From positions 1 through 48,155 of the IMG/VR virus record IMGVR_UViG_3300020185_000073: a stretch of DNA of 48,155 nt; one strand, written 5' to 3'. Under the pieces are notes generated by a model. The model searched no databases, was not told the origin of the DNA, and saw only the letters and a list, made by a program, of their open reading frames with translations. This stretch comes from a virus. Positions within the stretch are counted from its first letter, which is position 1. Each line of letters begins with the position of its first letter. Positions 9,101 to 46,769 of the stretch are shown one piece after another. Made by a program: the position numbers and the translations under genes.

Positions 9101-9880
9101 AACTGTGGTTCCTAAACCAACTGAACTGCTTGACGAATTTAACCACACATCGTCTAATCTTCCATACCATATGTTTCCACCATTGCTAGGATTACCTACA
9201 ATAAAGAATCCGTCATCTGAAACTTTAAACCTTGACTTGAATGTGTTTCCATTCATACCAGAAAAGGCAGTAGACAGGGAAGATCCGCTTCCAACCCACT
9301 GTCCAGCGGAAGAACCATCAGATCTATTGTATAGGTACATGGTATCAAAATCACCATTGTTATAGAAATCTAATATTGCAACTTTATCTGAAGAAAAACC
9401 ACCACCTTTAGCTCCTTCTATCCAATCGAATGTTCCAACAACATCGTAAGGTGTATATGAACTAACATCAACTGTAGTAGATGTAATTTTAGAAATACTA
9501 TTTCCAAAGTCTTCTGGTTGTGCAGCAGTATCAGCAAGAGCACCTTGAGCGGCAGTTGCAACACCGCTTGTTAAAGTGTTATTAATTGTAGCAATGTCAG
9601 ATGTGTTAGTTGCGACATTTGCCACTAAGTTTGTATCTGCATCTTGGAATGCAGTTACGATTTCTTGAAGTGTATCCAGAGTTTCTGGAGACGTTCCTAA
9701 AATCGCAGTAACTTGCGACTGTAGGTCTGCGATGTCAGAAGCAGTTAAATCTGCTACCGCATCAGCAATTGCACCTGCGACAATTTTGCCGTCTGCGTCA
9801 ATAACAGTAACGTCGTTGATTGATAGTTCTCCAACTATGTCAGCTCCGTTCTGAATTCTAAATTTTTTATTAGTACTCAT
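113..9880 (-). CDS. Giant modular tail-fibre protein (3255 aa) with beta-propeller-like inserts
   Basis: Very probably a receptor-binding tail fibre or tail-associated adhesin. The N-terminus (KKFRIQNG.DI.GEL, then a PETLDTLQEIV coiled coil) is paralogous to that of the upstream collagen-like gene. The body alternates linkers and globular inserts. Seven near-identical linkers read APA.LDTLNELAAALGDDANF. Inserts at about residues 140-470, 880-1320 and 1865-2225 contain repeated FG-GAP-like blades (FG......DD.L.VG....G.VYVY), so they look like beta-propellers. Unrelated globular segments lie at about 618-790 and 2355-2560. Residues 2700-3170 are mostly coiled coil (ARIAGDSDLQSAID repeats). The C-terminus (LSEGTNKFWTPERTKS, then a beta segment) is a motif common in marine phage fibres. 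The ATG at 9880 follows an AAAAGGT ribosome site. Its own terminator lies downstream. The exact receptor is unknown. Confidence 0.9.
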   Translation of the reverse strand: MSTNKKFRIQNGADIVGELSINDVTVIDADGKIVAGAIADAVADLTASDIADLQSQVTAILGTSPETLDTLQEIVTAFQDADTNLVANVATNTSDIATINNTLTSGVATAAQGALADTAAQPEDFGNSISKITSTTVDVSSYTPYDVVGTFDWIEGAKGGGFSSDKVAILDFYNNGDFDTMYLYNRSDGSSAGQWVGSGSSLSTAFSGMNGNTFKSRFKVSDDGFFIVGNPSNGGNIWYGRLDDVWLNSSSSSVGLGTTVAISDNVLAWKAMDTTNDNTPNNGRIRVQPRSAGTHQTSDANNYNITGGSSNEYIGMYMEAAGTYLVYSSGSPVSKYVVVSAADGSVVSEISNPGASNWGYGMNTDGTNVVVLSNDNVYVYTMAGSLVTSFAHNLGGSGVPDGVYVNDDTVLVTDDSTINQLSISSGTLTGTKTLSGHNEMTQVVLDGTDLLVTTDLGVNYGYLSGSTSTSYDVDDSVFASKVYVDTAVANADPDLSSYPNTTEMTTAIAAAKTEAQTYADGAVADAIDAAPAGLDTLNELAAALNDDANFASTMTTALAGKATVAEVQTLQDSLGISTKLYVQDSAPSTMTENEIWINSTDGSVHKSGASIQVGGITSDMFEKRPTHTSHWGGTFGNGPSIMFKDEYVPFIDQNTTIESASQSAGNVLPIFHYQIGSSGFDNAYEPNVWDDNHPDVFKFKTPVSLGGWKSDPQLHSVKYEDGTVEFFNANGSTGYGSNLGNNYFTKKISAFRVGASGTSNGGRIEYFEITQVEDSSWTKVSSVDTDLSGYSTTAEMNSAIATAVANADVDLSGYSTTAEMNSAITAEVANVVDAAPAALDTLNELAAALGDDANFASTVTTSLATKASQTDITSVREMLTGQDVELQVLVGGGYDGFTYASGTKQGNLSIFDLNNPTATPISLTTPTSGSGISGVTDPQIGHRSVIADSEVIVASGMEGSVIVWHLNDLENPMVLAWDSDVDPASNKFGECLGISKGTSHDTILVGDPKEEGGSTDDGAIYAYHKTTGQYLGQFAPTGDPEYSGFGGDYHFGDTFEVVNDKLIIGVSLDDKGESPNSGTLYSWNLDPATGVPTGSAARGYVESKRSGRYGDFTASHGDYFVSGLGLKYDGATNTFSHQTPWNGQVDVYHKDNIFTPITTLTSGYSSDFWESPAEKTRIINQYAQWNTTPNPSMYTHDNGFGKVGSSCVLSDDWLIISHTDGMKEEEFTHWTTGPYTVDQDKGIVYVFQRTGDTSFTTTPTMVLTGYQYGVHKFGSTLTLKGNMLVVGNGNLHEPNIHAIDLTSPSTAIELPKSGYYFGMNAMVLKPDNAAWPGGPSSLSDLNTNEKSIISSINEIHSEIGVLSNAQPDLSGYSTTAEMNTAIANADVDLSGYSTTAEMNTAIANADVDLSGYSTTAEMNSAITAEVANVVDAAPASLDTLNELAAALGDDANFASTVTASIATKASQTDLDANTTAIATKASQTDLDTNTAAIAAETARAQAAEADLVSHLGGDIASGDLTITGTANFNGGLSFGDGNGSIGFNSGVDDIQVLSNMDMQGNKLLGVGTPVDSVDVTTKGYVDGEISTSLSTAAADATAKADAAQTAAITAAGTAATAAIAATIDAAPASLDTLNELAAALGDDANFASTVTASLATKSDSTATTAAISAETTARESADSDLQSAIDALSGIQSGDTSSLTSQIATAKSQAISTASTDATAKADAAQTAASIDATAKADAAQSQAISTASDTATALANAAQSQAIATASTDATAKADQAEVDAKAYADQVVASTIDAAPAALDTLNELAAALGDDANFASTVTTALATKADDVATTTALATKADDAATTTALATKADVTTVTAIEDFLNGNVSDVTPEAVPLTKISPISSGSSHSDRFGSNMIITNDYVIVAADNYGSDQHGQVFVYDKNNTESVPSVIEMQNESSLINTQYGPSFGENMVWSENTKTLACSWSTSVSSSNTGGIQFFDVTDRNNISMKHQYLGSTDDRLKVRANTDGKFIATSKTNFSGSQLLLWDENSLSASPTAFVSPTGVSWGNRVVAGEGRMYVFEQATSTWYEYDVATLTLQSTITNSGNSYYGVIGGGKFISWSPNTIANVYEFGSNVRTAIDLGGNPSNALHATSSHLYIGSIKTDQYGALGTDEGVLKVYDLSDLNATPVTISTAQSFYGYFGGITADDETLYITEYDGSGSSSPKGINRWDVSSLAGGFSLQSDLESLVSAETSAREIAIAAETSARETAITSAISTASADATSKADQAEVDAKAYADQVVAATVDAAPAALDTLNELAAALGDDANFASSVTSSIATKADDAATTAALDTKADVTTVTALDTLLGKTEVAYYESMYSARYTGGGSSNSHSSAQIAFDGGALSDTLRTSIHSQISSVSGVRRVEFLNNGTVTYGFVSPNDITSSTQYNSTVTRGEILLRTDGSNVGTGDPDSILTTVYGTQYNTSVPASQQNGSGVGTPVGGHWPSFDTVKVYDSSGVQSEVTYSDYLTGNGFDSTGQPAGSVSFDTSSSTVSGAINELHSDISDLQTQVAGISVDSDSQVVLSQNIDMSTKEIKNAWRVQADDLVADRLDLDNGGTLNAKLGTVDFEGSIVNFSSASVGGLGSTINDQVDVHLNKSTANTGEFVKWNGTDYEWTELLSGRLATDQLQVASGGSISITGPGGTFDFQDGIVMLSGSDVRVDTPTDVGQAANKGYVDGVDSDLTVSLAAETSARESAVTSAISTASADATVKADAAEADAKAYADQVVAATVDAAPAALDTLNELAAALGDDANFSATVTASIGTKANQTSLDAETSARSTADSGLQINIDGEETARIAGDSDLQSAIDAEIVARTTADTIETSARIAGDSDLQSAIDSLTLTQSGDQSNLQSQITAEVARASSAEAVNAANILSETSARSSADAALESDIIGLQNQVGTIISGSPASLDTLVEIVSAFENADSDLSGVITANGGRLTTAENNITALETDLSAEENARGAGDIALGLRLDSDKSAMNTDLANETSGRIAGDSDLSASISAEETARIAGDSSLQSAIDALTNSSNIAISSETTARTSAVSTETNDRIAGDSDLQSSIDAEVSRATGAESGLQTQISNILSNTDATALNSLAEIVAEFQNADSTLTGVVGGHGTRLTSLESGVSAIESWTTDNLSEGTNKFWTPERTKSVLTGGLCITYNSTTGTISIDETEAATALHVASSGDANALGNESPSHYRIDVYDVNGTIVN

Positions 9881-10737: not shown

Positions 10738-13700
10738 TTATACATCTACATACGTAGAGGATACTGACACGACTGCACCAGCACTTACTGCGGTATACAA
10801 CAACTCAACACTTGAACCAGTTATACGAACATCGGTGTCACCCAATAGGGTTGAACCTGTGTATAGGATACCGTACTCTGTGATGTAAGCATCTGTTCCG
10901 TCATGAATAACTAGACATTCACGAGTTTCGAACTCACCATTGTTCTCTACAGTTACTACATACTTAGCAGAACGATATACTGCTTTGTTGAATGTAGATA
11001 CTACTGTAGCAGAAGTTCCGGCAATGATATCATTACCTTGTTCGAATACCTTGATGTTATCAGCAAGAGTCTCAAGACCTACAGACTTAGGATCTAGTAC
11101 ACCAACTGAGTTAGTAGACTGAGCAATTACAACTGCCTGTGTACCAACTGGTAGAGCAGCGTTGAAAGTGATCTGTTGGTTAGTAGCATCAATCGAGTAG
11201 TGAACCGATGGATCCTGAATAACACCACCAACGAATACCATTGCGTTAGCTTCTAGAGTATAGAAGTCCAAAGCAAACATAGTCTGTGCACCGTCACCAG
11301 AAATAACTTGTCGTCTTGAATCGTTGAATGACAACTGAGCAGGGTCGACTAGTTCGATACCAGAACCGTCTGTCTTAACACGAGCAACAAAACCGTTCTT
11401 ATTTACTAGATCAGCATCAACAACGTCTTCCAACTCAACGAATGCCTTACCAGTTGATACTGATAGAACACCAGATGTGTTGTCATAAGATACGTTACCT
11501 TCACCGTCTACGTCTGTGACTGCGATTGAAGCACGTGCACGAGCAGGAGTGAAGTATTCGTTGTCACCTTCTGCTAGATCAGTAGTTGAGAACTGTGAGA
11601 TGTGTTGTGCAGCAAGACCTGCGTCCATCTGACCTTTGTTCACTGCGTCAGCAGTGTCAGTACCAGTTGCAACACCAGAAACTTTGTTTCCACCCATTGC
11701 AAGTACACCAGTCATTGAATCACCAGACTTAGATACTAGACCGTCGATTTGAGTCTGTAACCCAGCATCAGCAGTAGCAAACTCACCACGTACAGCATTG
11801 TCACCAGCAATTCGGTCAGTGATTTCTTGTGCAAGACCTGAAGCATTAGTTGAGATATCTGTTACGTTCTGGTTAATTAGACCAGTTAGAGTACCATCTG
11901 CACTTTGGAATGCAGCAACGATTTCAGTTAGTGAATCTAGAGCAGCAGAGTCAGTGTTTGACGTAATGAAGTCAATTTGAGTCTGAAGTGAACCTTCAAC
12001 ACCTTGTGCACGAGATGATTCAGTAGCAATCGCAGTTGCGTTTGCAGTGATTAGTACACCATTTGCAGCTTCAGCAGCAGTTGCACGAGCAACTTCTGTT
12101 GCTAGATCAGATGTTAGAGTACCTTCAGCACTGGTTGCACGAGCAATTTCCGCATCCAACTGTGATTGTAGGTTGGTGATACCAGAATTTCTTGTGTTAT
12201 CAACCACCTTGATTGCAGCGTCTAACTTCTTGTCCGCATCTGATATAGATGTAGATAGGTCAATGTAGTTAGTGCCAGATGGAGTTGCGTAAGTACCGTC
12301 AGCATTTACACCAACAGAAAGTTGAATTGCAGACATTTCTGTCTCAAGTACTGTTGCACGTGAGTCTAGTGCGTTATCAGCATTTTGACGTGAAGTTGCT
12401 TCTGTAGTAATCTTACCATCTAGAACCGTATCTGCGTTTTCACGTAGAGTTGCTTCACTAGCAACGATTCCGTCTGCGTAGATTTTAGCAGCAGCTTCAG
12501 CATCATCTGCTTCTGATTCTGCGTAAGTCTGTGCAGATGCAAGGACGACTGCGTCACGTGCAGTATAGTCTGCTTGATCAGTGACACGATGTGCTGCAAG
12601 ATCAGAACGGATTAGAGTGTCAGCAGCAGTACGTGCAACGATTTCAGATGCAAGTGCGTCACTATCAGCATCAGCACGAGCAACAGCAGCCGCAAGTCCA
12701 GAAGTGTTAGTATCCGTCTCACCGTGTACTTCGTTGATTGCACCAGTTAGAGTTTGAGCAACTGTGTCTAGAGTTTCTGAAGAAGAACCGATCTTAGTTT
12801 CTAGAGCATCGATGTCACCTTCGTTAACTGTTAGACGGCCATCTTGTAAACCTTGCTCAGTCTCAAGTGCAGAGGCACGAGTTTCTAGAGCAGTAGCACG
12901 ACCTTCAACATTGTCCATCTCTGTTTCTAGAGTTGCAACTTTAGCAGTTTCAGCATCTACTTCACCATGTAGTTCGTTGATTGCGTCAGAAACGTTAGTA
13001 GCAACAGTTGCTAGAGTAGCAGATCCTTGCTTAGTTTCTAGAGCAGTAGCACGACCTTCTAGTACAGTAGCACGTCCTTCTACAGAAGTAGCACGACCTT
13101 GGATTGCAGTGAAGTCTGAATCGTGTCCATCTAAACGACCTTCAGCAACATCCATTTCTGATTGTAGTACGTCAACATTTCCTGCTTCAACGTCCAATTC
13201 TGCGTGAATCTCATTGATTGCGTCAGAAACGTTAGTAGCAACAGTTGCTAGAGTAGCAGATCCTTGTTTAGTTTCTAGATCATCGATGTCTGATTCGTTG
13301 ACATTTAGTCGACCGTTCTGAACAACTTGTTCTGTTTCCAGAGCAGTAGCACGACCTTCAACAGCAGTTGCACGTGCTTCTAGATCCGTAGAACGAGTTT
13401 CTAGAGATGTTGCACGACCTTCGACTGTAGTCAATCGACCAGAGTTTGCAGAGATAACACCTGTTAGATCAGAATCTGCGTCTTGGAATGCAGATACGAT
13501 TTCTGTTAGTGAGTCTAGAGCAGCACCGTCTTCATTAGAAACGATGTAGTCAACTCGACCTTCTAGAGTTGTTAGGTCAGTACGGATACCACCTTCAATA
13601 CCAGTTGCTCGTAGAACTTCTGCATCAATTTGGTCTTGCAAGTCAGTGATGTCTGTTCCTTGTAGATTTTGCAGTGCAAGGATGTCAGAATCATTTGCAG

Positions 13701-16215
13701 TAACTTGTGACTGAACACTATCTACGTCTGTACGTAAACCTGCTTCGATACCTTCCGCACGGTTCTTTTCAGTAACAACAGCAGCGGCATTAACACCTTC
13801 TGCGGCAGTTGCACGGTTGACTTCAGCAGTGATCTGTGCTTGGTTGTCTGCATGATCAGCAGCTTGCAATACTTGTAGAGCAAGAATGTCTGAATCATTA
13901 TCAGAAATGTCAGATGCATTTTGATCAACGTCTGTACGTAAACCTGCTTCGATACCAGTAGCACGAGTTACTTCAGAAGTAATCTGTGTTTGTAGATCTG
14001 AATCAGCAGCAGTGTAATCAGTAATAACACCATCTACACGTGTACCCAATGCAGATTCCGCAGCAAGAGCACGAGTGCGTTCTGCGTTAATGTCACCTAG
14101 ATTAGATGATATGCTGACTGTATTAGTGTTTACATCTGTACGTAGACCAGCTTCGATTGCTTCTGCACGTTGACGTTCAGTAACAACAGCAGTGGCATTA
14201 ACACCTTCTGCTCCTTGAGCACGAGCAACTTCTGTTGCTAAGCCAGATGTTAGTACACCTTCCGCAGAGATAGCACGAGCAGTTTCAGCAACGATTTGAC
14301 CTTGTAGATCGGAATCACCAGAATGTCGAGCAACTTCTTCTGCACGTAGATCGATTTCATTCTGAGCAGCAAGAGCTTCAACAGTATCCATCTCACCTTC
14401 TAGTACAGTAGTACGTAGAGATAATGCGTCATCAGCAGCTAAACGAGTTGCTGCTTCAGCAGAAACCTGTGAGTCTGTGTATGCAGTTGACTCACCTTTA
14501 GCAGTTGCGATACGAGCAGTAATAGTATTACCAACAGTACCGTTTACAGATGCGTCACCGATTAGAGCAACATCTTGTGCATCAGCATGTGCTTCTGCAG
14601 CTGCTTGATGTGTGTCTGCTTCTTGATCAGTATATGCTTTTGCAGATTCAAGAGTGTCTGAATCACGACCGATATAATCTAGTGTGATGTTATCGATTTG
14701 TGACTGTAGACCAGTGTCCGCAGTAGCACGAGTAGATGCTTCGGTATTGATATTCGTTTGTAAAACACCTTCAGCTGCTTCAGCACGTGCCTTTTCAGTA
14801 GAAATTGCAGTAGTGTTAGAAGAAACAAGAGCAGACATATCACTATCAGCATTTTGGAATGCAGAAACGATTTCTGTTAGTGAGTCTAGTGCAGCAGAGT
14901 CTGTGTTTGAAGTAATGAAATCAATCTGTGATTGTAGGTTTGAGTCACCAGCAATACGAGCAGCAGTTTCAGTTGAATCAGCAGTTTGCAATGCAGTGAT
15001 ATCACCATCATTAGAAGTGATTTGTGACTGTAGACCAGACTCAGCAGATTCTGCACGTGTCTTCTCGACAAGTACTTTAGCAGCAGCATCTGCGGCCGCA
15101 ACAGTTTCTGCATCTGACTTAGAAGTTGCAATTCGATCAGTGATGGTATTGCTTGCGGAACCGTCAACAGTTGCATCACCAATCATCAATGTGTCTTGTG
15201 CTTCGGCATGTGACTGAGCAGCGTTCTGTGCAGTAACAATGTCGGCACCTAGATCAGTACGAACTTGTGTATCAGCAGTTGCACGAGCAGTGATTTCGTC
15301 TTGCAAGTTAAGTGCGTTTGCAGATTCTGCACCAGTTGCACGAGTAACTTCATCAGCAAGATCTTGTGTAAGAACTGATTCAGCACCAGTAGCACGAGTA
15401 ACTTCAGCAGTGATTTGACCTTGTAGAGAAGTTGTTGATGCTTCTTCTGTGCTTAGACGTGCAGATAATGCATCATCAGCAGAGATACGTGCAGTCTCTT
15501 CAGCAGTAAGTAAAGATGTGATTGCAACTTCTGCCGAAGTAGCACGAGCAACTTCAACAGCAAGATCACTAGCAATTCCAGTTTCTACCGCAATTGCACG
15601 TGCTTTCTCAGTAGTGATCGCAGAAGAGTTAGCAATGATAGAACCGGATAGTACATCATCAGCATCTTCAAATGCAGCAATTACTTCTACAAACGAGTCG
15701 ATTGCAGCAGAGTCTGTGTTACTTAGAATGTCATCAATACGACCAGATAGAGCAGTGTCAGCAGATTGAGATGCTGCTTCAATTGCGTCTTCACGTGCTT
15801 TCGCACGAGTTTCTTCGGCAGTGATGTTAGATTGTAATGTTATGTCTGCTTGTGCACGTGTTGATGCTTCGGCAGTGATGTTGGATTGTAATAGTTGTTC
15901 AGCAACTGTTGCACGGTTAGTTTCTACCGCTACCGCATCTGCGATATCTTGAGCAACAGCAACTTTAGCCCTCTCAGGTGTAAAGTATTGATTATTACCT
16001 TCTGATAAATCGTCCGTAGAGAACGATCCAAAGAATGCGTCTGCTGTAATCTTCTTTAATGAGTCTGAACCGACATCATATAGAAGGGTAAAACAGTCAG
16101 ATGGATTAGTCATACCTACAAGGGTGGATTGTCCCTGTACAGCACTTTCGTCTAATTTGGTATTGATTACCGCCTTATCTGCTAATGCTGGGGATTTAAT
16201 CTGCCTAAATGCCAT
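10738..16215 (-). CDS. Long coiled-coil tail-fibre protein (1825 aa)
   Basis: A large fibrous tail protein. The N-terminus (MAFRQIKSPALADKAVINTK, later FSTDDLSEGNNQYFTPERA) is a fibre-attachment type I recognise from marine myophages. Residues from about 90 to 1480 are nearly all coiled coil, built from imperfect repeats such as TRATGAESVL, SDLQ.QI, GRATALE and TLATVATNVSDAINE. The C-terminal part turns globular: KGQMDAGLAAQ, a second TTDLAEGDNEYFTPARARA motif, an AMVFVGGVIQDP beta module and a final beta-rich domain (about 1650-1825) that is the best candidate for receptor contact. Start ATG at 16215 has AGGAG about 7 nt upstream. It follows the 119-residue gene by 59 bp and probably shares its late promoter. 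Which fibre (long, short or side) it is cannot be told from sequence. Confidence 0.87.
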   Translation of the reverse strand: MAFRQIKSPALADKAVINTKLDESAVQGQSTLVGMTNPSDCFTLLYDVGSDSLKKITADAFFGSFSTDDLSEGNNQYFTPERAKVAVAQDIADAVAVETNRATVAEQLLQSNITAEASTRAQADITLQSNITAEETRAKAREDAIEAASQSADTALSGRIDDILSNTDSAAIDSFVEVIAAFEDADDVLSGSIIANSSAITTEKARAIAVETGIASDLAVEVARATSAEVAITSLLTAEETARISADDALSARLSTEEASTTSLQGQITAEVTRATGAESVLTQDLADEVTRATGAESANALNLQDEITARATADTQVRTDLGADIVTAQNAAQSHAEAQDTLMIGDATVDGSASNTITDRIATSKSDAETVAAADAAAKVLVEKTRAESAESGLQSQITSNDGDITALQTADSTETAARIAGDSNLQSQIDFITSNTDSAALDSLTEIVSAFQNADSDMSALVSSNTTAISTEKARAEAAEGVLQTNINTEASTRATADTGLQSQIDNITLDYIGRDSDTLESAKAYTDQEADTHQAAAEAHADAQDVALIGDASVNGTVGNTITARIATAKGESTAYTDSQVSAEAATRLAADDALSLRTTVLEGEMDTVEALAAQNEIDLRAEEVARHSGDSDLQGQIVAETARAISAEGVLTSGLATEVARAQGAEGVNATAVVTERQRAEAIEAGLRTDVNTNTVSISSNLGDINAERTRALAAESALGTRVDGVITDYTAADSDLQTQITSEVTRATGIEAGLRTDVDQNASDISDNDSDILALQVLQAADHADNQAQITAEVNRATAAEGVNAAAVVTEKNRAEGIEAGLRTDVDSVQSQVTANDSDILALQNLQGTDITDLQDQIDAEVLRATGIEGGIRTDLTTLEGRVDYIVSNEDGAALDSLTEIVSAFQDADSDLTGVISANSGRLTTVEGRATSLETRSTDLEARATAVEGRATALETEQVVQNGRLNVNESDIDDLETKQGSATLATVATNVSDAINEIHAELDVEAGNVDVLQSEMDVAEGRLDGHDSDFTAIQGRATSVEGRATVLEGRATALETKQGSATLATVATNVSDAINELHGEVDAETAKVATLETEMDNVEGRATALETRASALETEQGLQDGRLTVNEGDIDALETKIGSSSETLDTVAQTLTGAINEVHGETDTNTSGLAAAVARADADSDALASEIVARTAADTLIRSDLAAHRVTDQADYTARDAVVLASAQTYAESEADDAEAAAKIYADGIVASEATLRENADTVLDGKITTEATSRQNADNALDSRATVLETEMSAIQLSVGVNADGTYATPSGTNYIDLSTSISDADKKLDAAIKVVDNTRNSGITNLQSQLDAEIARATSAEGTLTSDLATEVARATAAEAANGVLITANATAIATESSRAQGVEGSLQTQIDFITSNTDSAALDSLTEIVAAFQSADGTLTGLINQNVTDISTNASGLAQEITDRIAGDNAVRGEFATADAGLQTQIDGLVSKSGDSMTGVLAMGGNKVSGVATGTDTADAVNKGQMDAGLAAQHISQFSTTDLAEGDNEYFTPARARASIAVTDVDGEGNVSYDNTSGVLSVSTGKAFVELEDVVDADLVNKNGFVARVKTDGSGIELVDPAQLSFNDSRRQVISGDGAQTMFALDFYTLEANAMVFVGGVIQDPSVHYSIDATNQQITFNAALPVGTQAVVIAQSTNSVGVLDPKSVGLETLADNIKVFEQGNDIIAGTSATVVSTFNKAVYRSAKYVVTVENNGEFETRECLVIHDGTDAYITEYGILYTGSTLLGDTDVRITGSSVELLYTAVSAGAVVSVSSTYVDV

Positions 16216-17595: not shown

Positions 17596-17952
17596 TTACC
17601 TTGTCACCGAAGGATTGACTTTTATTTTGCCTTCAAGCACTCTTTCTATAATAGTGTTGCCTTCTCCATCGACATAACTTATCTCGACATCATAGACATA
17701 TCTACCACGAGTAGTTAGCATGTCGGTTTGGAGATTGGTTAAGGAAATGGTAACAATACCATCTGTTGAAGGGTCTGGAATAATAGCAGTAAAGTCAACA
17801 GTACTGTCATCAGAACTATTGAAGGTTTTCTTCATCTTGGCAGATACAGAGAACCCAGTTAGGTCTTTTGTTGATTCATCAGGGTCTACTAACTCTATTT
17901 GCAAAGCAAAGTCTGAACCCTGATCAATTGTGAAATCTTCGTAAGTTGCCAT
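17596..17952 (-). CDS. Small beta-sandwich baseplate protein, BppU-N-like (118 aa)
   Basis: The sequence has the look of a recurrent phage baseplate or fibre-adaptor domain: IDQGSDFALQIEL at the start, LTGFSVSAKMKK, a G.VTISLTN.QT strand, RGRYVYDVEI, and a final EGKIKVNPSVTR. In other phages similar domains sit at the N-terminus of upper baseplate proteins (BppU-type) and hold receptor-binding proteins. Here it stands alone, directly before a small fibre gene. The assignment rests on motif resemblance only. The late promoter lies 41 bp upstream. Confidence 0.65.
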   Translation of the reverse strand: MATYEDFTIDQGSDFALQIELVDPDESTKDLTGFSVSAKMKKTFNSSDDSTVDFTAIIPDPSTDGIVTISLTNLQTDMLTTRGRYVYDVEISYVDGEGNTIIERVLEGKIKVNPSVTR

Positions 17953-18122: not shown

Positions 18123-18830
18123 TTATTCCGCAGATTGAATATCTGCAAGAACCATTGCACGGAATCCTTCGGATGCTTCTGAATGATCAAAAACATAGGA
18201 TACTGTACACCGCCAGTCATCTGTAGATGCGGCATGATACATTACTTTATCTGATTCACCATAGTGACCAAAGTATGCTGCCTTACAAGTCCATTCGCCC
18301 GGCTTGTCTTGACAACGAACAACTTCTTTGGTTTCAGGGTGAATGTATTCAAAGTAACCTGAACCGTCTTCTGAGTAAGAGAAGATTAGGTTGTAACCTG
18401 GAGCATTTGCATTGTTATGCCATGAGATGAATCCACCTGGTGGATATACAGCAGCAAGTGCATTATGTTTAACTGACAAGAAGTTCATCATCCTGTCATT
18501 TAAATCACGTAAGTGATGAGTCACGTCACGTTTAAAGATAGGATCAGCATCCTTCTCAAACATTTGATGTGCTTTGTCGGAAAGTTTGAAGTTGTAACCA
18601 ACTAGTTCGTCTGGGTAACCTTCGTGATCCTGACCCAATGCAACAATATCATTCATGTATTTGGTACCGACAAAGTACGGTCTCTGAATAATGTGTTGCG
18701 CAGAGGATAGGTGACAGTTTTCTTCAAAACCTTTTATGGTATACAACTTGGAATATTCGTTTAGAATCTCTAACAATTCAGGATTGTTAACCTGTACATG
18801 TTGTAGATATTGATCGTTTACCTGTGTCAT
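18123..18830 (-). CDS. 2OG-Fe(II) oxygenase-like protein (235 aa)
   Basis: Resembles phage-encoded 2-oxoglutarate, Fe(II)-dependent hydroxylases. Motifs in order: YPPGGFISWHNNANAPGYN with H138-x-N140, a long beta stretch (IFSYSEDGSGYFEYI), then MYHAASTDDWRCTVSY with H199 and R207. That gives the His...His...Arg pattern of the double-stranded beta-helix fold: two metal ligands plus the 2OG-binding Arg. The usual Asp of HxD is Asn here. The gene overlaps the glycosyltransferase-like gene by 4 bp (ATGA), so the two are translationally coupled. A substrate cannot be read from sequence; a fibre protein or a nucleotide is possible. Length suits a single-domain enzyme. Confidence 0.72.
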   Translation of the reverse strand: MTQVNDQYLQHVQVNNPELLEILNEYSKLYTIKGFEENCHLSSAQHIIQRPYFVGTKYMNDIVALGQDHEGYPDELVGYNFKLSDKAHQMFEKDADPIFKRDVTHHLRDLNDRMMNFLSVKHNALAAVYPPGGFISWHNNANAPGYNLIFSYSEDGSGYFEYIHPETKEVVRCQDKPGEWTCKAAYFGHYGESDKVMYHAASTDDWRCTVSYVFDHSEASEGFRAMVLADIQSAE

Positions 18831-19564
18831 ACGATTGGAGTATCCTTATTTAAACCTGCTGAGAAGTGACGTAGTATCACTGGTCCAGTTTCAGGTTTAG
18901 TTCTTGCCCAATTTAGAGCATTGTAATAATTCCATCTCAAGTCGTCATCAAAGATACCAACCTTGAGATCCTTATATTTTTCTTCTTTCTCGGTCAACCA
19001 CCAAAGAGAGAATTGGTCCCAAGACTTGAGACTGTCAATATATCCTTCTGGCCACCAAGTGTCGTTCATTTGTCTGAACGTTAAGTCCCACCAGTCATCC
19101 ATGAACTCACGAACGATTGGTTTGGTCATATCATATAAACATACACCACCGCATAATGTAAACTTCGCACTACCTTCTGGTGTATCAAAGTCTCTTTCTG
19201 CGTAAATATAATCACGATCATCTGTCAATGCAGAGAAGACCACGTCATGGTCCTTCATTTCATCCCAAACCTTGATAATGTCTTCGTGCTCACATTCCAT
19301 GTCAGCATCAATATACATTGTCAAGTCGTACGGAGATTTTGACATCCCCCATAACTTGGCACGATAGTGGTCATCACAGAATATAATATCATCTGCAACA
19401 TCACGACCACGGTCATCAAGAAATCGTTCTTCTGTAACGATACAAATCTTACACTCTTCTTCAGGTTCATAATAGTCCCTGAGAGACTCTGCGAGATTCA
19501 GTCCATACAAATAAAAGTTTCGTTTCTTGGACGAAACAATTATAAATCCTTTAGTCTTTTCCAT
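18827..19564 (-). CDS. Glycosyltransferase-like protein, GT-A fold (245 aa)
   Basis: Likely transfers a sugar from a nucleotide-sugar donor. GT-A / GT8-like signs: N-terminal beta strand GFIIVSSKKRNFYLYGLNLAESL, the metal-binding DxD as YIDADME (D86, D88), CGGVCLYD near 138-145, SWDQFSLWW (D183, Q184) and a C-terminal HFSAG. No membrane segment is seen. The ATG at 19564 gives a 14-bp overlap with the upstream coiled-coil gene; an earlier in-frame TTG at 19579 would add five residues and is less likely. It is coupled to the 2OG-oxygenase-like gene downstream. Sitting among late tail genes, it may glycosylate a virion fibre, though action on host surface sugars is also possible. Confidence 0.75.
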   Translation of the reverse strand: MEKTKGFIIVSSKKRNFYLYGLNLAESLRDYYEPEEECKICIVTEERFLDDRGRDVADDIIFCDDHYRAKLWGMSKSPYDLTMYIDADMECEHEDIIKVWDEMKDHDVVFSALTDDRDYIYAERDFDTPEGSAKFTLCGGVCLYDMTKPIVREFMDDWWDLTFRQMNDTWWPEGYIDSLKSWDQFSLWWLTEKEEKYKDLKVGIFDDDLRWNYYNALNWARTKPETGPVILRHFSAGLNKDTPIV

Positions 19565-20012
19565 CTGTCTCGGCCTCAAGTTGGTCTTGTAGAATCATGA
19601 TTGAGTACATATCGACTTCAATCTTAGATTTTGCACGACGCAATTTTGCCTTCAACTTACGGTTTTTAGAGTTCTTAATCTCTTCGACTTCGAACGCCTC
19701 CATCTTGTAATTGAAGAGTTTTTCAAGTTTACGTGCTTTATTATGTTCCTCATCACGTATCTTCTCTTCTTCAGCTTGTGCCTCTTTACGCACAACACGT
19801 TCGGTAGTTTCCTTATCAATCGCATCAACACCCAAAGCATCGACTACTTCATTAAACAGTTCGTTTTCAGCACCGTTCTTATCATGTCGATGCAAGAACA
19901 TCTGTTGACGTGTTACACGACCCATATCATCTTCAAGTTCTAGGATACAGTTTAGTTCTTTCTTTTTGTCTGTTTCCCAGAACGCATTATCCATCCATTG
20001 CTTACGACTCAT
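19551..20012 (-). CDS. Charged coiled-coil protein of unknown function (153 aa)
   Basis: I do not recognise the family. Residues 1-45 look globular (MSRKQWMDNAFWETDKKKEL, then QQMFLHRHDKNG). Residues from about 65 to the end are highly charged and helical (RVVRKEAQAEEEKIRDEEHN, KLKAKLRRAKSKIEVD), which suggests a dimeric coiled coil. It is the first gene of a three-gene unit with the glycosyltransferase-like and oxygenase-like genes, and overlaps the former. A role as chaperone or scaffold for the modification of a fibre is possible but is inference from position only. Confidence 0.6.
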   Translation of the reverse strand: MSRKQWMDNAFWETDKKKELNCILELEDDMGRVTRQQMFLHRHDKNGAENELFNEVVDALGVDAIDKETTERVVRKEAQAEEEKIRDEEHNKARKLEKLFNYKMEAFEVEEIKNSKNRKLKAKLRRAKSKIEVDMYSIMILQDQLEAETDGKD

Positions 20013-20154: not shown

Positions 20155-23100
20155 TTATGCAACCCTTACGTATAAAGTATAAGTTTCTGGTGTATGTACT
20201 AAAGTGTCACTAATCGTTGCACCAGTGTAGTTACCTAGGAAGGATCGTGAGTAGTTTCCACCGAAGTTACGTGAGTAATCACCTGCAAAGTCACGTGAGT
20301 AGTTACCAGTGAAGTCACCTACGTATGTAGATACACGGTCACGTGAGTAAGTACCTGAGTATGCAGAACTACGGATTCTTGAGTAAGCAGAAACTCTGAC
20401 TCTTGAGTAATCACCTACAAAGTCTCTTGAGTAGTTACCAGTGAAGTCACCTACAAAGTCACGGGCATATGTACCAGTATACTCACCAGCAAATGCTCTT
20501 GAGTAATCACCGACGAAGTCACCAGCGAAGTCTCTTGTATATTGACCAGAGAATTCACGTGAGTAGTTACCAGTGAATGTGTTGCTGTAGGTTCCTGTGT
20601 ACTCACCGGCATAGTTTCTTGCATAGTTTCCTACGTAGTTTCCACCAAAGTCTCTTGAGTAAGTTCCTGAGTAAGTACCAGCGTATTCACCCACGAATCC
20701 ACGTGAGTAAGTTCCAGCATATTCACCAGTGAAAGTACGTGCATAGTTTCCTACGTAGTTTCCACCAAAGTCTCTTGAGTAATTACCAACATAGTTACCA
20801 GCAAAGTCACCGACGTAATCACCTACAAAGTTACCTGCGTAGTTACGTGAGTATTCACCAGCGAAAGTTCTTGCGTAGTTACCAGTGAAGTCTCCAGCGA
20901 AGTCAGTTATACGGTCACGGGCATATGAAGAACTACGGTTACGAGTGTATACCGAAATTCGGTTACGTACATATGCAGAGTAACGAGTACGTGTTGAAGT
21001 ACGAGCATACTCACCAGTGAAGTCTCCAGCGAAGTCGCCAGCATATCCACGTGCGTAGTCTCCTATGAAGTCACCAACATATCCACGTGCATAGTTGCCC
21101 ACGAAGTTACCTGCGAAGTCAGTTACTCTATCTCTAGTGAAATCTCCAACATAGTTTGTGATACGAGTACGAGAATAAGCAGAACTACGGTTACGAGTCG
21201 AGTCACGAGTACTGTTACGAGTAAAGTCACCAACATAGTTTGTGATACGAGTACGAGCATATGCAGAGTAACGAACACGAGTAGAAGTTCGAGTTGAAGT
21301 TCTTGCGTAGTTACCCACAAAGTTACCGGCAAAGTTAGTTACACGGTTACGAGTAAAGTCACCAACATAGTTTGTGATACGAGTACGAGCATATGCAGAG
21401 TAACGAGTACGTGTTGAAGTACGAGTACTTGTTCTTGCGTAGTTACCTACGAAGTCACCAGCGTATGCTAGAGTTCGACCATAGTCACCTACGAAGTCAC
21501 CAGCATAGTAACCTACACGAGTATAGTAACCAGTGTTAGTTGAAGTACGAGTACTTGTTCTTGCGTAGTTACCAGTGTAGTTACCAGTACGTGTACGAGA
21601 GTAGTTACCAGTGTAGTTACCAGTACGTGTACGAGAGTAGTCACCTACGAAGTCACCAGCAAAGTTGGTTACACGAGTTCTTGCGTAATCTCCAGCGTAT
21701 GAAGCTGCCCGTGTACGAGAGTAGTCACCAGTATAATAGAAAGAAGAGTAACGATTCCTTGTGTAGTTGCCAGTATATGCTTCAGCAAGAGTAGAAGTTC
21801 TGGTACTATATCTTATATAAGCAGAACCACGACTACGAGTAAAGTTTCTTGCGTATGCACCTGAATAGTATAGGTTACGTGTATAGTTACCTACGAAATC
21901 TCTCGTGTATGCCATAGCAGTGACAAAGTTACCACCGAAGTTCCCGACATATGATGAGGAACCTAAAGCATTTCTATAAACTTTATACCAAGTGAATCCA
22001 CCAGAAGTTGTATAGTAAGATCCTCTATAGTAAACGTTCCCATCACTGCCATTGGTTGAAGTTGCAGTAGGAATATAATGTACTGCTTTTAGTGTCCCAG
22101 CCCATCTGACATGAATATCTGATGGTTCACCAGGAACAGGTGGTCCCACCCTCCAGTAATAGTAATTTGATGCATCCCAACCATTGTAGAATTCAGCACT
22201 AGTAAAGTTACCAGCTACTACACTGGTTCTTGTAGAAGTTCTAGTTGAGACGAGGTTACGAGTAAAGTTGCCCACGAAGTTACTAACATAGGACCCTATA
22301 CGAGAGTAATCACCACCGTAGGCACGAGAATAGTTACCCACATAGTAACGTCCATAGTTACCTGCGAAATCTCCAGTATAATAGAAAGAAGAATAACGAT
22401 CCCTTGTGTAGTTGCCAGTATATGCTTCAGCACGAGTTGATGTACGAGAATAGTTACCAACATAAGATGCGGCACGAGTACGACCATAGTTACCTACGAA
22501 GTCACCAGCATAATTGGTTACACGAGTTCTTCCATAGTTACCAACATATGAGAATGCACGGTTACGTGAGTAATCTCCAACATATGAGAATGCACGGTCA
22601 CGAGTATAGTCACCTACGAAGTCACCAGCATAGTACAATGTACGAGTGTAATCTAGTGTTCTTGTAGATGTACGTGTTGAGTTACGAGTATAATTAAATG
22701 CACTGTTACGAGTACGTGTAGAAGTTCTTGCATACTCACCAACATAGTTACCAGCGAAGTCACCAGCGTATGCTCTAGCATAGTTACCTACGAAGTCACC
22801 TGTGAAAGTTGTTGCATAGTTTCCAACAAAATCACCAGCAAAGTTAGTTACTCGGTCACGTGAATAGTCACCTACGAAGTTACCGACAAAGTCACCAGCG
22901 TAACCACGAGCATAGTTACCTACGAAGTCACCTGTGAAAGTTGTTGCATAGTTCCCTGTGAAATCTCCAGCATAGTTACCTGTGAATGTACGTGAATAGT
23001 TACCTACGAAGTCACCAGTAAAGGTAGTCGCATAGTTACCTATAAAGTTACCGGCAAAGTTAGTTACACGGTCACGAGTATATGCAGAGTAACGAGTACG

Positions 23101-24738
23101 TGTTGATGTACGTGCGTATGCAGAATATCGAGTTCTTGTAGAAGTTCGAGTAGATACACGAGCATAGTTACCAACATAATCACCGGCATAACCACGAGAG
23201 TAATCCCCAACGAACCCACGAGAGTAATCCCCAACGAATCCACGAGAGTAATTTCCTGCAAAGTTACCAGCAAAGTTAGTGACTCGATTACGAGTATAAG
23301 CAGAAACACGTGCACGAGAGAAAACACCTGCGAAGTTAGTTACGCGGTCACGAGTATAGTTGGTAATACGAGTACGGGTATAATCAGCAGAGTATGCAGA
23401 AGTACGAGTACGAGTATAAGTCCCTGCGTAAGCAGATACACGGTTGCGTGAATAGGTACCGGCATATGCAGATACACGGTTGCGTGAATAAGTCCCTGCG
23501 TAAGTTCCAGTGTATGATGATACACGTGTACGAGTGTAGTCTGCTGAGTAAGAAGAACTACGAGTACGTGAGTAAGTACCTGAATAAGTTGAAACCCGAC
23601 CACGAGTATAAGAAGAAACTCTATTACGTGAGAATGTACCAGTAAATGGTGTGATTCGGTTTCGGACATATGTAGAAACACGTGAACGGTTGTAAGTACC
23701 GGCAAAATAACCAGTAAATGCAGTTAGTCTGTTACGTGTGTATGAAGATGTACGAGTTCTTGCATAGTTACCGACAAAGTCACGTGAGTAGTTACCTGCG
23801 AAGTCACGTGAGTACGCACCTGTATATTCTCCAACAAATGTACGTGAGAAAGTGTCTACACTGTTCCTTGTGTAAGTAGATATACGGTTACGAGCATATG
23901 CAGAGATTCTTGTGCGAGTGTAAGCTGAGTTACGTGTACGAGAATATGATGCATCGACAATAGTACGTTGGGTGTTTGCGGCAGAACCACGAGGTACCCA
24001 AGTACCTGCTGAAGTTGGAGCACCTTGTGCAGATGAACGCAACTGGTATGAACCAATCGCACCTGCTGTTGCTCGAAGTGATTTAGCACGTTGACCAAGT
24101 GTGTACTTGATCTCTGCGTCTGACATTTCTTTTAGACCGTTAAATGACGTACCGTCATAGTCGGTCGCAACTGGACGAACTACTGAAACACCAGAAGGTG
24201 ATACAGTCTTCTTCCAAATATGATAATCTATTGTTGTACCATCACCTAATGTATTAGAGAAAACATTATCGACATGTTTAGTCCAGTCACTGCCTGGTGA
24301 GGTGGCTTGTAGTACAAACGAACCCTGAAGTCCATTGGACTCAATGTTTTTTAATGCACGGTTTGTGAGGTTATCCAAATCTGCGTCTACCATTTCGTAG
24401 AAGCCAGGATTTGCGTTATCTGCGTAATAACCGACAGGTCGAGCAAAATCAGAACCAGACTCACTTGCGGAACCACTAACCTGTCTCAAGGTTGTAGTTA
24501 CACTCGTGTTTGTGATAGCAGACATCGGGTGTGTTCCCGCTGGTTCATTGTAGAAGGTATCTACAAATGAACCGATGTTTGTACCGTTGGTTAAACTGAT
24601 GTCACCAATATCACCAGCAGTGGCCTCTGCTAGTGCTTCTCCTACTTTAACAGCGAGGTAATTCTCTTCTGCTGGAGTAAGTTCCTGTAGGTCACCATTA
24701 GCATTCTTAATTTTTAGTGGTATACTAGATGCTGACAC
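20155..24738 (-). CDS. Giant tetrapeptide-array structural protein (1527 aa)
   Basis: Residues 1-260 form a distinct N-terminal domain (LKIKNANGDLQELTPAEENY, TNGTNIGSFVDTFYN, PVGYYADNANPGFYEM) of a kind I associate with marine myophage structural proteins. From residue 265 to about 1507 the protein is an array of four-residue words of the forms Y-x-R-x, F/Y-x-G-N/D, R-x-S-x and STRT. One globular insert of about 85 residues (GWDASNYYYWRVGPPVPGEP...) lies near residues 845-930. Outside the insert and its immediate flank I see no Lys, His, Cys, Met or Trp in the array. The last 15 residues (TLVHTPETYTLYVRVA) leave the pattern. It has its own late promoter 50 bp upstream and is therefore a late, virion-associated product by inference. 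Function is unknown; a long beta-structured fibre or surface layer is my best guess. Confidence 0.85.
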   Translation of the reverse strand: MSASSIPLKIKNANGDLQELTPAEENYLAVKVGEALAEATAGDIGDISLTNGTNIGSFVDTFYNEPAGTHPMSAITNTSVTTTLRQVSGSASESGSDFARPVGYYADNANPGFYEMVDADLDNLTNRALKNIESNGLQGSFVLQATSPGSDWTKHVDNVFSNTLGDGTTIDYHIWKKTVSPSGVSVVRPVATDYDGTSFNGLKEMSDAEIKYTLGQRAKSLRATAGAIGSYQLRSSAQGAPTSAGTWVPRGSAANTQRTIVDASYSRTRNSAYTRTRISAYARNRISTYTRNSVDTFSRTFVGEYTGAYSRDFAGNYSRDFVGNYARTRTSSYTRNRLTAFTGYFAGTYNRSRVSTYVRNRITPFTGTFSRNRVSSYTRGRVSTYSGTYSRTRSSSYSADYTRTRVSSYTGTYAGTYSRNRVSAYAGTYSRNRVSAYAGTYTRTRTSAYSADYTRTRITNYTRDRVTNFAGVFSRARVSAYTRNRVTNFAGNFAGNYSRGFVGDYSRGFVGDYSRGYAGDYVGNYARVSTRTSTRTRYSAYARTSTRTRYSAYTRDRVTNFAGNFIGNYATTFTGDFVGNYSRTFTGNYAGDFTGNYATTFTGDFVGNYARGYAGDFVGNFVGDYSRDRVTNFAGDFVGNYATTFTGDFVGNYARAYAGDFAGNYVGEYARTSTRTRNSAFNYTRNSTRTSTRTLDYTRTLYYAGDFVGDYTRDRAFSYVGDYSRNRAFSYVGNYGRTRVTNYAGDFVGNYGRTRAASYVGNYSRTSTRAEAYTGNYTRDRYSSFYYTGDFAGNYGRYYVGNYSRAYGGDYSRIGSYVSNFVGNFTRNLVSTRTSTRTSVVAGNFTSAEFYNGWDASNYYYWRVGPPVPGEPSDIHVRWAGTLKAVHYIPTATSTNGSDGNVYYRGSYYTTSGGFTWYKVYRNALGSSSYVGNFGGNFVTAMAYTRDFVGNYTRNLYYSGAYARNFTRSRGSAYIRYSTRTSTLAEAYTGNYTRNRYSSFYYTGDYSRTRAASYAGDYARTRVTNFAGDFVGDYSRTRTGNYTGNYSRTRTGNYTGNYARTSTRTSTNTGYYTRVGYYAGDFVGDYGRTLAYAGDFVGNYARTSTRTSTRTRYSAYARTRITNYVGDFTRNRVTNFAGNFVGNYARTSTRTSTRVRYSAYARTRITNYVGDFTRNSTRDSTRNRSSAYSRTRITNYVGDFTRDRVTDFAGNFVGNYARGYVGDFIGDYARGYAGDFAGDFTGEYARTSTRTRYSAYVRNRISVYTRNRSSSYARDRITDFAGDFTGNYARTFAGEYSRNYAGNFVGDYVGDFAGNYVGNYSRDFGGNYVGNYARTFTGEYAGTYSRGFVGEYAGTYSGTYSRDFGGNYVGNYARNYAGEYTGTYSNTFTGNYSREFSGQYTRDFAGDFVGDYSRAFAGEYTGTYARDFVGDFTGNYSRDFVGDYSRVRVSAYSRIRSSAYSGTYSRDRVSTYVGDFTGNYSRDFAGDYSRNFGGNYSRSFLGNYTGATISDTLVHTPETYTLYVRVA
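20218..23946 (-). repeat. 12-bp / tetrapeptide array, about 290 words
   Basis: The coding DNA is a degenerate 12-bp repeat, seen on the plus strand as variants of gagtagttaccagtg or acgaagtcaccag. The first 104 words run without a break in four-residue phase. Later phase breaks are additions of two residues. Arg is coded variously by CGT, CGA and AGA in equivalent positions, so the protein pattern is kept while the DNA diverges. The array is interrupted at about 21951-22205 by a normal globular segment. Confidence 0.95.
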
Positions 24739-24914: not shown

Positions 24915-25355
24915 TTATTTTGGTTTCTTTGGCCAATCAACATCCTTAACGTTGGAAATATTATCTTCGACAAAGGATAGACTTCTTAGTTCCTCACGAT
25001 ATATTTGCCAATCCAACTTCTCATCTTCTGACAGTGGAGAGTCTGACATTTGAGTCCAGTCACTACTCTGAAGCAATCGATTACGAATTTCTCTTACCTC
25101 TTGAATGAGATCGTCCCATGACCATTCCCACTGATTGTTCACCCACTTGGAATGTTTGTTGGGAGATACTTCTCTTTCTTTCCACTCGTCGTCCCAATAG
25201 TGAGTCATAATGAAGTCATTTCTATTATCTATAGCAAAATCAATATGAACCACTTCAGAACCGTCTTCACGTAATCCTTCTGGTTCATTATTACCAGATG
25301 CTAATTTCAGGACTTCTATCTCATTATTTCTAATGAAAGCAATATAATAAATCAT
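24915..25355 (-). CDS. Tail-assembly-chaperone-like protein, cassette B (146 aa)
   Basis: The C-terminal half carries the pattern of the Phage_tail_APC family: W.W....LI..V..IRNRLLQSSDWTQ (residues about 78-102), then PLSEDEKLDWQIYREELRSL and a final VDWPKKP. The N-terminal half (EPEGLREDGSEVVHIDF) is shared with the cassette-A protein at 34300-34782. Proteins with this domain are encoded next to tail-fibre genes and probably help fold or attach the fibres; some are virion parts. It is the last gene before the terminator at 24799, 11 bp after the double-YGL gene. Likely partner: one of the cassette-B fibre proteins. Confidence 0.75.
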   Translation of the reverse strand: MIYYIAFIRNNEIEVLKLASGNNEPEGLREDGSEVVHIDFAIDNRNDFIMTHYWDDEWKEREVSPNKHSKWVNNQWEWSWDDLIQEVREIRNRLLQSSDWTQMSDSPLSEDEKLDWQIYREELRSLSFVEDNISNVKDVDWPKKPK

Positions 25356-34299: not shown

Positions 34300-34782
34300 T
34301 TATTCGGGTATTGTAGGCCAAACTACTTCTGCAACTGAAGATAAGTTATCTTGAACATTGTCTGGCAAGTCTCTCAATTGTTGTCTGTACACTCTCCACT
34401 CTTGGAGTTTTGACTCTGTCAGAGGAACGTCCATTGCTTGCGTCCAATCAGAAGAGAGTAAAAATCTGTTTCTTTCTAAAACCACATCCTTCAATAGTAG
34501 TTCAAAATCCCATGTCCAACCTTCGGTTGCATTCCATAAGGCATGACGATTGGGAGGCAACCCTATAAATTCAAATGAGTTCGTTTCCTCGTTGTACCAA
34601 TGATAGTCTAAGAAATATCTAAGGTCTTCACACCCTTCAGGAACACCTCCTTCGAATATGTGGACGACACGTGTGGTCCCATCATCAGAGATACCTTCAG
34701 GTTCAATATTATGATTAGGTAATGATATTCTGGATATCTTCCCAGTTTCTAAGTTTACATATACTACAAGTTTCAAGTTCAT
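34300..34782 (-). CDS. Tail-assembly-chaperone-like protein, cassette A (160 aa)
   Basis: Homologue of the cassette-B protein at 24915-25355. Shared features: NIEPEGISDDGTTRVVHIF near the start, PPNRHALW, then GWTWDFELLLKDVVLERNR, LLSSDWTQAMDVPLTESK, EWRVYRQQLRDLP and a final WPTIP. This is the Phage_tail_APC pattern (about residues 100-156). Such proteins accompany tail-fibre genes and are thought to aid fibre folding or attachment. It has its own late promoter 28 bp upstream, separate from the large array gene before it, and leads the transcript that continues into gp8. Confidence 0.77.
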   Translation of the reverse strand: MNLKLVVYVNLETGKISRISLPNHNIEPEGISDDGTTRVVHIFEGGVPEGCEDLRYFLDYHWYNEETNSFEFIGLPPNRHALWNATEGWTWDFELLLKDVVLERNRFLLSSDWTQAMDVPLTESKLQEWRVYRQQLRDLPDNVQDNLSSVAEVVWPTIPE

Positions 34783-44996: not shown

Positions 44997-46769
44997 TTAC
45001 AACAATACTCTAGTAGTCTGTTCGTCAATTACTGCATGGGCAATCAGTGAGTCCTCATCTAATTCAATGATGTAGTTTCTCAATGGACGTATTGTACTTG
45101 GATTAGCAGGGGTCACAGATACATTTAATATTAGAGGTGTGACAGTATCTACCGAAAGTGCGTGTAGGAAGACCTCTCCAGTAACAGGTTCGTAACGACC
45201 GATGTTTCTCTCTCGGACAATATTATCTAGGTCAAATATCTGTAGTCGAGTCGACCCTATTTCGTTCTTAATGTATGCATTTTGACCATTGTACTTGAAT
45301 ATAGATGTCTTCACCGTGTGTTCATCATTGTCCGGTTCTGCCAATGCATATGGGAAGTTGACAGTGTGATCCTTTTCAGAACTATTGTTCACCTCGATTC
45401 TTTGTTGTCCCTTAACATCCACCTTAGAGTTTAGAATAGATGGACTAATATCATCGATCTCTTTCAATAGATTAGATCGACGGAACACGGCATCGAATGT
45501 ACCTAGACTAGAATTGAAATGCTCAGTAATGACATTCTTTACTGCCACTTGCATTGCTTCGGGACTAGTTGTTCTTGCAGGATCGATGTTAAATCTACAT
45601 GAAATTTCGATATAAGTCATTTCTGGGTCAACGAACTTAGTATCAATTGACATGATTGCTAGGTTAGATGTTAGGTTGTCACTGATCAAATTCTTAGTGT
45701 CTTGTTTACTCAACTCATCAACATCGTCTTCGAAGTTGAGACTAACAAACACCTTACCGAACTCTGGTGGAATATTGTCCTGACCACCCCAAGCAATCAC
45801 ATCACTTATATGAGATGCGAACTTAGTTTTTATCAGATTCTTGTAATCTTCCCCAGTGACCAGCCGTTGTTGTGCAGTGAATGCTCTGGGTGCGTTTCTT
45901 TTTATAGAAGAAAGAGACTCTTTCTCTGAACCACCCGATGATGCAGAAATTGTTTGAGTGGTAACTGTTCTACCATTCAACAACTCGGCACTGAACGAAC
46001 TTACACCATTTGCAACTGGACCACGAGTCTGTAAGTAGTCTACCTGAATCTTGCTACCAACAGTAGGTATCTGACCCAGTACATTACCGTCACTGAAAAA
46101 GATTTCAAAGTAACCATTCGAAACTTCCTTGACGATATAAACCTTAGAGTCTCCATCTATAGTTACTGAGTTCTCTATGTTGATGTAGGTATCGTACACG
46201 GATGTATTGAAGTTACTGAATATTTTGACGGACATGGTCGATGTGTCCATGTTCTTGTCCGAAATTACATATGCGTTGTCTTCACCAGAGAATATGAATG
46301 CACTTGTTTTTGAAACACCTTCGTATACCCGAACATTCTCGAATACGAACTGGTCGTCGGTTTTGAATGCGACTGTTTGTTCTTGGGTCACAAAGGTAAA
46401 TGATACTTCATCGACATCTCCAGTGAACCGATGTCCGGCTGGCAGTGTCAGTACGTCTTCACCTGACAATGCGTCAATCGTCACAGTAACCAACCCAGTT
46501 GAACCTGTGCGAGACTTCGTAGTGTACCCTAAAGATTCTGCATGGGCAAGTGCAGAAGAACGTATCTGAGATGATGATAGGAACGACTCGTTGATTGCCA
46601 TGTTAGCAGTCAATGCATTGATGTGTGTATTGTATGCGAGTACGTCTAGTAGACTAGAGAGTCCACTACCATCGAAATTGTAGTCACTGAAATCTTCACT
46701 CTGTCTAAAGTGTTCAATGAGACTTTGCTTGATGTTTGCAAAATCTAGGTCAGAATTTTTTATTGTCAT
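44997..46769 (-). CDS. 6: Baseplate wedge protein gp6-like, J family (590 aa)
   Basis: Homologue of T4 gp6 / P2 gpJ, which with gp25 forms the conserved core of the baseplate wedge and closes the iris around the hub. The N-terminus has LDFANIKQSLIEHFRQSEDF, SDYNFDGSGLSSLLDVLAYN and then ANMAINESFLSSSQIRSSAL, the standard gp6 opening. Further on come KSRTGSTGLVTVTI, RLVTGEDYKNLIKTKF and SDVIAWGGQDNIPPEFGKVF, the Baseplate_J hallmarks. Length is a little below T4 gp6 (660 aa). It starts directly after the gp25 stop (TAAATG). Confidence 0.94.
   Translation of the reverse strand: MTIKNSDLDFANIKQSLIEHFRQSEDFSDYNFDGSGLSSLLDVLAYNTHINALTANMAINESFLSSSQIRSSALAHAESLGYTTKSRTGSTGLVTVTIDALSGEDVLTLPAGHRFTGDVDEVSFTFVTQEQTVAFKTDDQFVFENVRVYEGVSKTSAFIFSGEDNAYVISDKNMDTSTMSVKIFSNFNTSVYDTYINIENSVTIDGDSKVYIVKEVSNGYFEIFFSDGNVLGQIPTVGSKIQVDYLQTRGPVANGVSSFSAELLNGRTVTTQTISASSGGSEKESLSSIKRNAPRAFTAQQRLVTGEDYKNLIKTKFASHISDVIAWGGQDNIPPEFGKVFVSLNFEDDVDELSKQDTKNLISDNLTSNLAIMSIDTKFVDPEMTYIEISCRFNIDPARTTSPEAMQVAVKNVITEHFNSSLGTFDAVFRRSNLLKEIDDISPSILNSKVDVKGQQRIEVNNSSEKDHTVNFPYALAEPDNDEHTVKTSIFKYNGQNAYIKNEIGSTRLQIFDLDNIVRERNIGRYEPVTGEVFLHALSVDTVTPLILNVSVTPANPSTIRPLRNYIIELDEDSLIAHAVIDEQTTRVLL

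Follow-up and report, generated by a model that had tools for sequence, protein, structure and literature searches.

Genomic context of the array gene

The window analyzed here is a 48,155-nucleotide stretch of viral DNA, positions 1 to 48,155 of IMG/VR virus record IMGVR_UViG_3300020185_000073. It contains a gene whose product consists largely of four-residue words (Table 1). This array, at 20218-23946 and read on the minus strand, corresponds to residues 265-1507 (1243 residues) of the 20155-24738 open reading frame (ORF). The gene sits among baseplate and tail genes, including baseplate wedge genes at 44997-46769 and 46770-47213, and has a dedicated chaperone, as in a T4-like tail fiber module. 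A homologue of the PF16778 chaperone is present in 45 of 46 loci carrying the gene, and in 42 it lies just upstream on the same strand. The three-ORF set follows downstream in 29-31 of the 46 loci, many of which end short of that point. The conserved neighbor at 18827-19579 (minus strand) has a sub-threshold match to glycosyltransferase family 2 (E 0.005).

Table 1. Features of the array gene and its surroundings; roles given to parts of the array protein are proposals
Feature	Position	Strand	Remarks
Array protein (proposed hairpin fiber), 1527 aa, GTG start	20155..24738	(-)	45 homologous loci
Conserved N-terminal domain, residues 1-264	23947..24738	(-)	No Pfam, PHROG or PDB relative
Arm 1 (outgoing), residues 265-838	22225..23946	(-)	Proposed to pair with arm 2 at i+j=1769
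Central insert (putative tip), residues 839-930	21949..22224	(-)	Hypervariable among close relatives
Arm 2 (return), residues 931-1504	20227..21948	(-)	Antiparallel complement of arm 1
Conserved C-terminal tail, residues 1505-1527 (GATISDTLVHTPETYTLYVRVA)	20158..20226	(-)	Predicted strand; proposed hairpin base
Tail-fiber assembly chaperone, PF16778 Phage_tail_APC	24915..25355	(-)	E 3e-15; directly upstream of the fiber gene
Three conserved ORFs, 153, 250 and 235 aa	18123..20012	(-)	No assigned function; downstream of the fiber gene
LtfC-like / L-shaped-tail-fiber assembly protein gene	17596..17952	(-)	Downstream of the fiber gene
Second array protein P0002, 1373 aa	34843..38964	(-)	Unrelated N terminus; putative hairpin with many bulges
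Second Phage_tail_APC (PF16778) chaperone	34300..34782	(-)	Directly downstream of P0002

Several other large proteins are encoded on the minus strand of the window. A 3255-aa protein at 113-9880 has a weak FG-GAP match, and the 1825-aa repeat-rich, fiber-like protein at 10738-16215 is probably a coiled coil. A 1573-aa repeat-rich tail protein at 39302-44023 contains repeats of 120-129 bp, and the long plus-strand frames antisense to it (39798-41012, 404 aa; 42153-43754, 533 aa) are probably by-products of these repeats.

Residue alternation and selection

A first-pass annotation of the letters had described the first 104 words of the array as keeping exact four-residue phase. This holds for 103 of them, which fit the broad word classes, SVDT being the exception. 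From residue 1092, another 73 consecutive words match the classes strictly, and the longest run in residue shuffles of the array was at most 9 words. Aromatic residues have an autocorrelation of about 3 at all multiples of 4, to lag 40. Two compositional claims of the same annotation were confirmed: outside the insert and its flank there is no Lys, His, Cys, Met or Trp, all five being limited to residues 854-942, and Arg is encoded by a mixture of codons (CGT 107, AGA 34, CGA 10, others 10).

Underlying the four-residue words is a two-residue alternation with strict parity. On one face, R (26%), Y (24%), G (21%), F (13%) and S (9%) account for 93% of positions, and the other face consists of T, A, N, V, S and D. 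The R/Y/G/F/S (core) face is 87-96% identical among homologues, compared with 51-80% for the opposite face. Such alternation with one conserved face would be expected of a beta strand with one face constrained.

The array is under purifying selection. Across 13 homologue pairs with measurable divergence, dN/dS was 0.16-0.43 for the array and ranged from 0.06 to 0.20 for the N-terminal domain, and the homologous ORFs are all open; values near 1 and frequent frameshifts, named beforehand as signs of an unselected frame, were not observed. The peptide pattern is thus selected, as had been supposed from the mixed Arg codons. The wider suggestion of a selected beta-type filament in a marine myophage tail-fiber region agrees with the two- and four-residue alternation, the conserved face, the purifying selection and the adjoining chaperone gene.

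Distribution and domain conservation

Searching IMG/VR with the N-terminal domain recovered 45 loci, 31 of which have both ends of the ORF, the others being cut by contig or locus ends. Among 50,697 annotated phages, the domain occurs in a single one, C48C1 (Kyanoviridae, 3347 aa), and it has no relative among the bacterial and archaeal genomes of our species set. A DNA-pattern scan for the words found at least 119 stretches, and most of the resulting ORFs have a diverged N-terminal domain and a C-terminal tail ending in a form of YTLYVRVA. Comparable arrays therefore do occur in other marine phages, as had been believed without a search.

Conservation is uneven along the protein. Between the window protein and its homologue L011, identity is 97% in the N-terminal domain, 93-94% at the arm bases, 78-86% in the distal arms and 42% in the central insert; in other homologue pairs, the insert is 17-41% identical. 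Pfam, PHROG and PDB searches with the N-terminal domain, insert and arms returned only one weak match, to an unknown PHROG (E 0.0018).

Two arms complementary in antiparallel order

The array consists of two arms that flank a central insert and are almost the same length. Simple parity segmentation of homologues in which this insert stands out gave arm lengths such as 603/603, 637/635, 664/652 and 959/968. Because the arms are so nearly equal around the insert, an out-and-back path of the chain is suggested.

We scored ANTIPARALLEL complementarity by comparing residue i with residue C-i at every C. In 7 of 7 long proteins, the mutual information of facing residues was highest within 2 residues of one common base-anchored register. 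We then trained a log-odds pair matrix on four relatives, taking as background those registers that share the word phase, and applied it to 15 other full-length relatives. One positive register was found in 14 of the 15, and in 13 it was single and strong (+67 to +144), all competing same-phase registers being negative. In one of the two remaining proteins, L026, the matrix score was weak and fell at the same base-anchored register, and the gapped self-fold scored 73 versus 24 when shuffled; the other, L027, was missed by the gapless scan yet fitted by the gapped self-fold (53 versus 17 when shuffled). The register was C = n+242 to n+247 throughout, a fixed distance from both termini in proteins of 850 to 2282 aa.

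In the window protein, the self-fold aligned residues 265-838 with 1504-931 as one ungapped ladder of 574 pairs with a score of 400, versus at most 29 in 40 word-shuffled controls. Cognate scores of 365-409 likewise compared with at most 7 for parallel alignment, 161 for other antiparallel offsets and 152 for local word shuffles, and block shuffles also fell far below the cognate register. The same-phase registers and the word shuffles rule out tetrapeptide phase alone as the cause.

The four proteins used for training are closely related to one another, and the homologues are not independent samples, a concern answered by the held-out proteins and by more distant families. In 54 further full ORFs, whose N-terminal domains are mostly 84% down to about 24-30% identical to that of the window, all 54 self-folds scored above their own shuffles, 37 by more than twofold, although some distant ORFs barely exceed the null. 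P0002, which has a Thr-Pro C-terminal tail, scored 47.5 versus a null maximum of 16.9.

C48C1 is the strongest single case. Its outgoing arm (263-1295) has almost no interruptions, whereas the return arm is broken by several domains of about 130-280 aa; past every one of these, the register picks up again (self-fold 493 versus 18 when shuffled). The C48C1 inserts (ORF at L001:15900-25943) are non-array domains with no usable Pfam, PHROG or PDB relative, and one is partly tandemly duplicated. At the level of sequence, these comparisons establish that the array consists of two arms mutually complementary in antiparallel order, in a single register. The equal arms, this residue-level complementarity and the insert as a hypervariable tip had all escaped the first-pass annotation.

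A complementarity code between the arms

Among about 4000 conserved-face pairs in 13 proteins, the commonest are G:R (25%), Y:Y (18.5%), F:R (14%) and R:S (9.5%). R:R pairs occurred 9 times, versus 302 predicted by composition, and their avoidance persisted with word phase controlled (log-odds -3.6). The most frequent element between Y:Y anchors is YxRxFxGxY opposite YxRxRxSxY. Since R faces G, F or S and almost never R, and Y faces Y, the octads YxRxFxGx and YxRxRxSx complement each other, and because octad order is aperiodic, one register is by far the best. The rule looks like one Arg per rung opposite Gly, Phe or Ser, with Tyr opposite Tyr, and its cause would be the pairing of strands across a beta-ladder. 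Matching of residue volumes between the facing positions does not explain it, as summed volumes were more variable than in shuffled controls (79.9 versus 75.4).

Compensatory changes

Close homologues that differ in length tend to do so by the same amount in both arms, at mirrored positions. L023 and L024 differ by 124-aa indels at 363-486 and 1313-1436 (mirror prediction, 1314-1437) and by a further 72/72 pair; L053 and L020 differ by 40-aa indels at 590-629 and 1172-1211 (mirror prediction, 1174-1213). Paired indels were also found in L033/L036 (112/112), L019/L020 (44/44) and L014/L017 (28/28), between L036 and L037 (176 in one arm versus 156+20) and between the window protein and L011 (12/12, 10/10 and 2/2). 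Mirrored positions are sometimes 4-47 residues off, as expected for indel placement in repeats. One exception is L040/L042, where a difference of 24 aa is confined to arm 2 and lies within a near-perfect 72-nt DNA repeat; this is perhaps an assembly collapse or else a tolerated bulge. Double-sided core substitutions are likewise enriched, with 45 observed versus about 12 expected from single-side counts (odds ratio 8.3). As read from these alignments, the two arms change length jointly in evolution.

Structure prediction

AlphaFold2 did not build the ladder. In the full-length short homologue L026 the arms had pLDDT of about 20, and arm 2 modeled alone had pLDDT 26. The N-terminal domain of L026 folded in parts, its second half mostly at pLDDT of about 60-80, and a C-terminal tail strand at 838-849 was clearly more confident than the arms. 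This strand and the last strand of the N-terminal domain (248-260) have a midpoint sum of about 1097, near the ladder register of 1094, which is only suggestive of contact at the base. Foldseek searches against PDB and BFVD gave nothing significant, the input models being too poor for this to weigh much.

Proposed architecture and alternatives

We consider it quite probable that the protein is a chaperone-assisted lateral tail fiber whose stalk is one giant antiparallel beta-ladder hairpin presenting a receptor-binding tip. The N-terminal domain and C-terminal tail would together form the base, attached to the baseplate; arm 1 would run out and arm 2 back, paired rung by rung; and the hypervariable insert at the loop would be the receptor-binding tip. 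The adjacent PF16778 chaperone may aid folding, and the aperiodic octad code may keep the strands from zipping out of register. A beta strand rises about 0.33 nm per residue, so 574 rungs would span about 190-200 nm if extended and less if twisted. Each ribbon may stand alone, or three hairpins may be bundled in the manner of other tail fibers.

More generally, it is likely that a short residue alphabet acts here as an aperiodic self-complementary code, by which the chain zips into a unique antiparallel beta hairpin of hundreds of rungs, forming a marine-phage fiber with a receptor-binding domain at the loop and, in C48C1, further domains on the return strand; as part of the same reading, the array protein may be compared to a nucleic acid stem such as an RNA hairpin, with its compensatory changes and mirrored indels. 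One objection to the hairpin is that a ribbon of only two strands, standing free over 574 rungs, would have no precedent. To our knowledge, no natural protein has two strands of hundreds of residues with an explicit pairing code and RNA-like compensatory evolution. The literature we searched, which included few subscription papers, contained no description of an antiparallel or hairpin phage fiber, a self-complementary repeat protein or a tetrapeptide array.

The complementarity could instead be real but satisfied between chains, either in an antiparallel homodimer or in a trimer where arm 1 pairs with arm 2 of the next subunit. A constant i+j suits a symmetric antiparallel dimer or a domain-swapped trimer equally well, and tail fibers are usually trimers. 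A symmetric dimer, however, would have an N-terminal domain at either end and the tip in midfiber, which is awkward for baseplate attachment, and the constant, conserved N and C termini at one end of the ladder are most simply explained as a single base. We regard interchain pairing as rather unlikely.

It is very improbable that the array is a disordered set of Tyr/Arg-rich stickers forming a sticky, phase-separating virion coat. In its favor are a composition of R, Y, G and S without Lys, as in Tyr/Arg sticker proteins, and the low AlphaFold2 confidence. The fixed register, mirrored indels and strict parity are nevertheless all present, none is required by disorder, and the "sticky surface layer" that the first-pass annotation offered as its other option is left without support.

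Equally slight is the chance of a classical beta-solenoid or triple-stranded beta-helix, in which successive turns pair and the arms are unrelated to each other. Short-period repeats and corner-like G-N and G-D steps would suit such a fold, and the triple-stranded beta-helix of T4 gp5 also has an 8-residue repeat, with VxGxxxxx octads in three interdigitated chains about one symmetry axis (PMC4576200). Both are thus beta-structured phage shafts of octads, or would be; gp5 as described, unlike the array protein, lacks an arm-to-arm complementary code and mirrored indels. The array octads are not of the gp5 type, being instead YxRxFxGx and YxRxRxSx, complementary between arms. Neither a solenoid nor a beta-helix predicts that the arms should be equal, that one register of constant sum should stand out or that indels should be mirrored; some pairing within an arm may exist in addition. 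A collagen-like fiber was rejected as well, with a period of 4/8 residues rather than 3 (G-X-Y) and no Pfam Collagen match.

Equal-length arms about a centre might also suggest that the symmetry arose as an artefact at the DNA level, for example by inverted duplication. This is refuted by the absence of inverted repeats (longest partial match, 29 nt at 72%) and is exceedingly unlikely also in that facing residues are complementary, not identical (Arg opposite Gly, Phe or Ser, not Arg).

Comparison with known phage fibers and implications

By analogy, the array protein may work like a receptor-binding lateral fiber of the T4 type. It shares with the T4-type long tail fibers (gp34-gp37) a baseplate/tail-fiber gene setting, an adjacent chaperone gene, a conserved base and a variable tip. 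Pfam, PHROG and PDB searches found no sequence relation to T4-type fibers or known fiber families. T4 long tail fibers are parallel trimers with the receptor-binding tip at the C terminus, whereas the array protein is proposed to have both termini at the base and the tip in midchain.

The host recognition cluster of pelagimyophages and cyanomyophages, as set out in part of one account, occupies the genomic region of the array gene in the same kind of marine T4-like phage and holds unidentified structural proteins and receptor-binding candidates; the cluster proteins named in that part have YHYH, concanavalin, collagen and YadA domains, not array words (PMC7029224). One cyanophage structural protein, SWTG_00067 of Synechococcus phage S-RIM2 (YP_007675557.1; L002:7414-13152), has a short, array-like C-terminal run of VTGN/LTGD tetrapeptides and matched at about 31% identity over 17% of the query. 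Unlike the array protein, it has at most 2 in-phase Y/F/R words and no related N-terminal domain.

If the proposed hairpin is correct, it would represent a new principle of fiber building in marine phages. It would locate receptor-binding tips in proteins that annotation tools do not recognize, and fiber length would be readable from sequence. The pairing would also provide structure predictors with a strong long-range constraint that they at present miss, and offer a designable code for addressable beta fibers.
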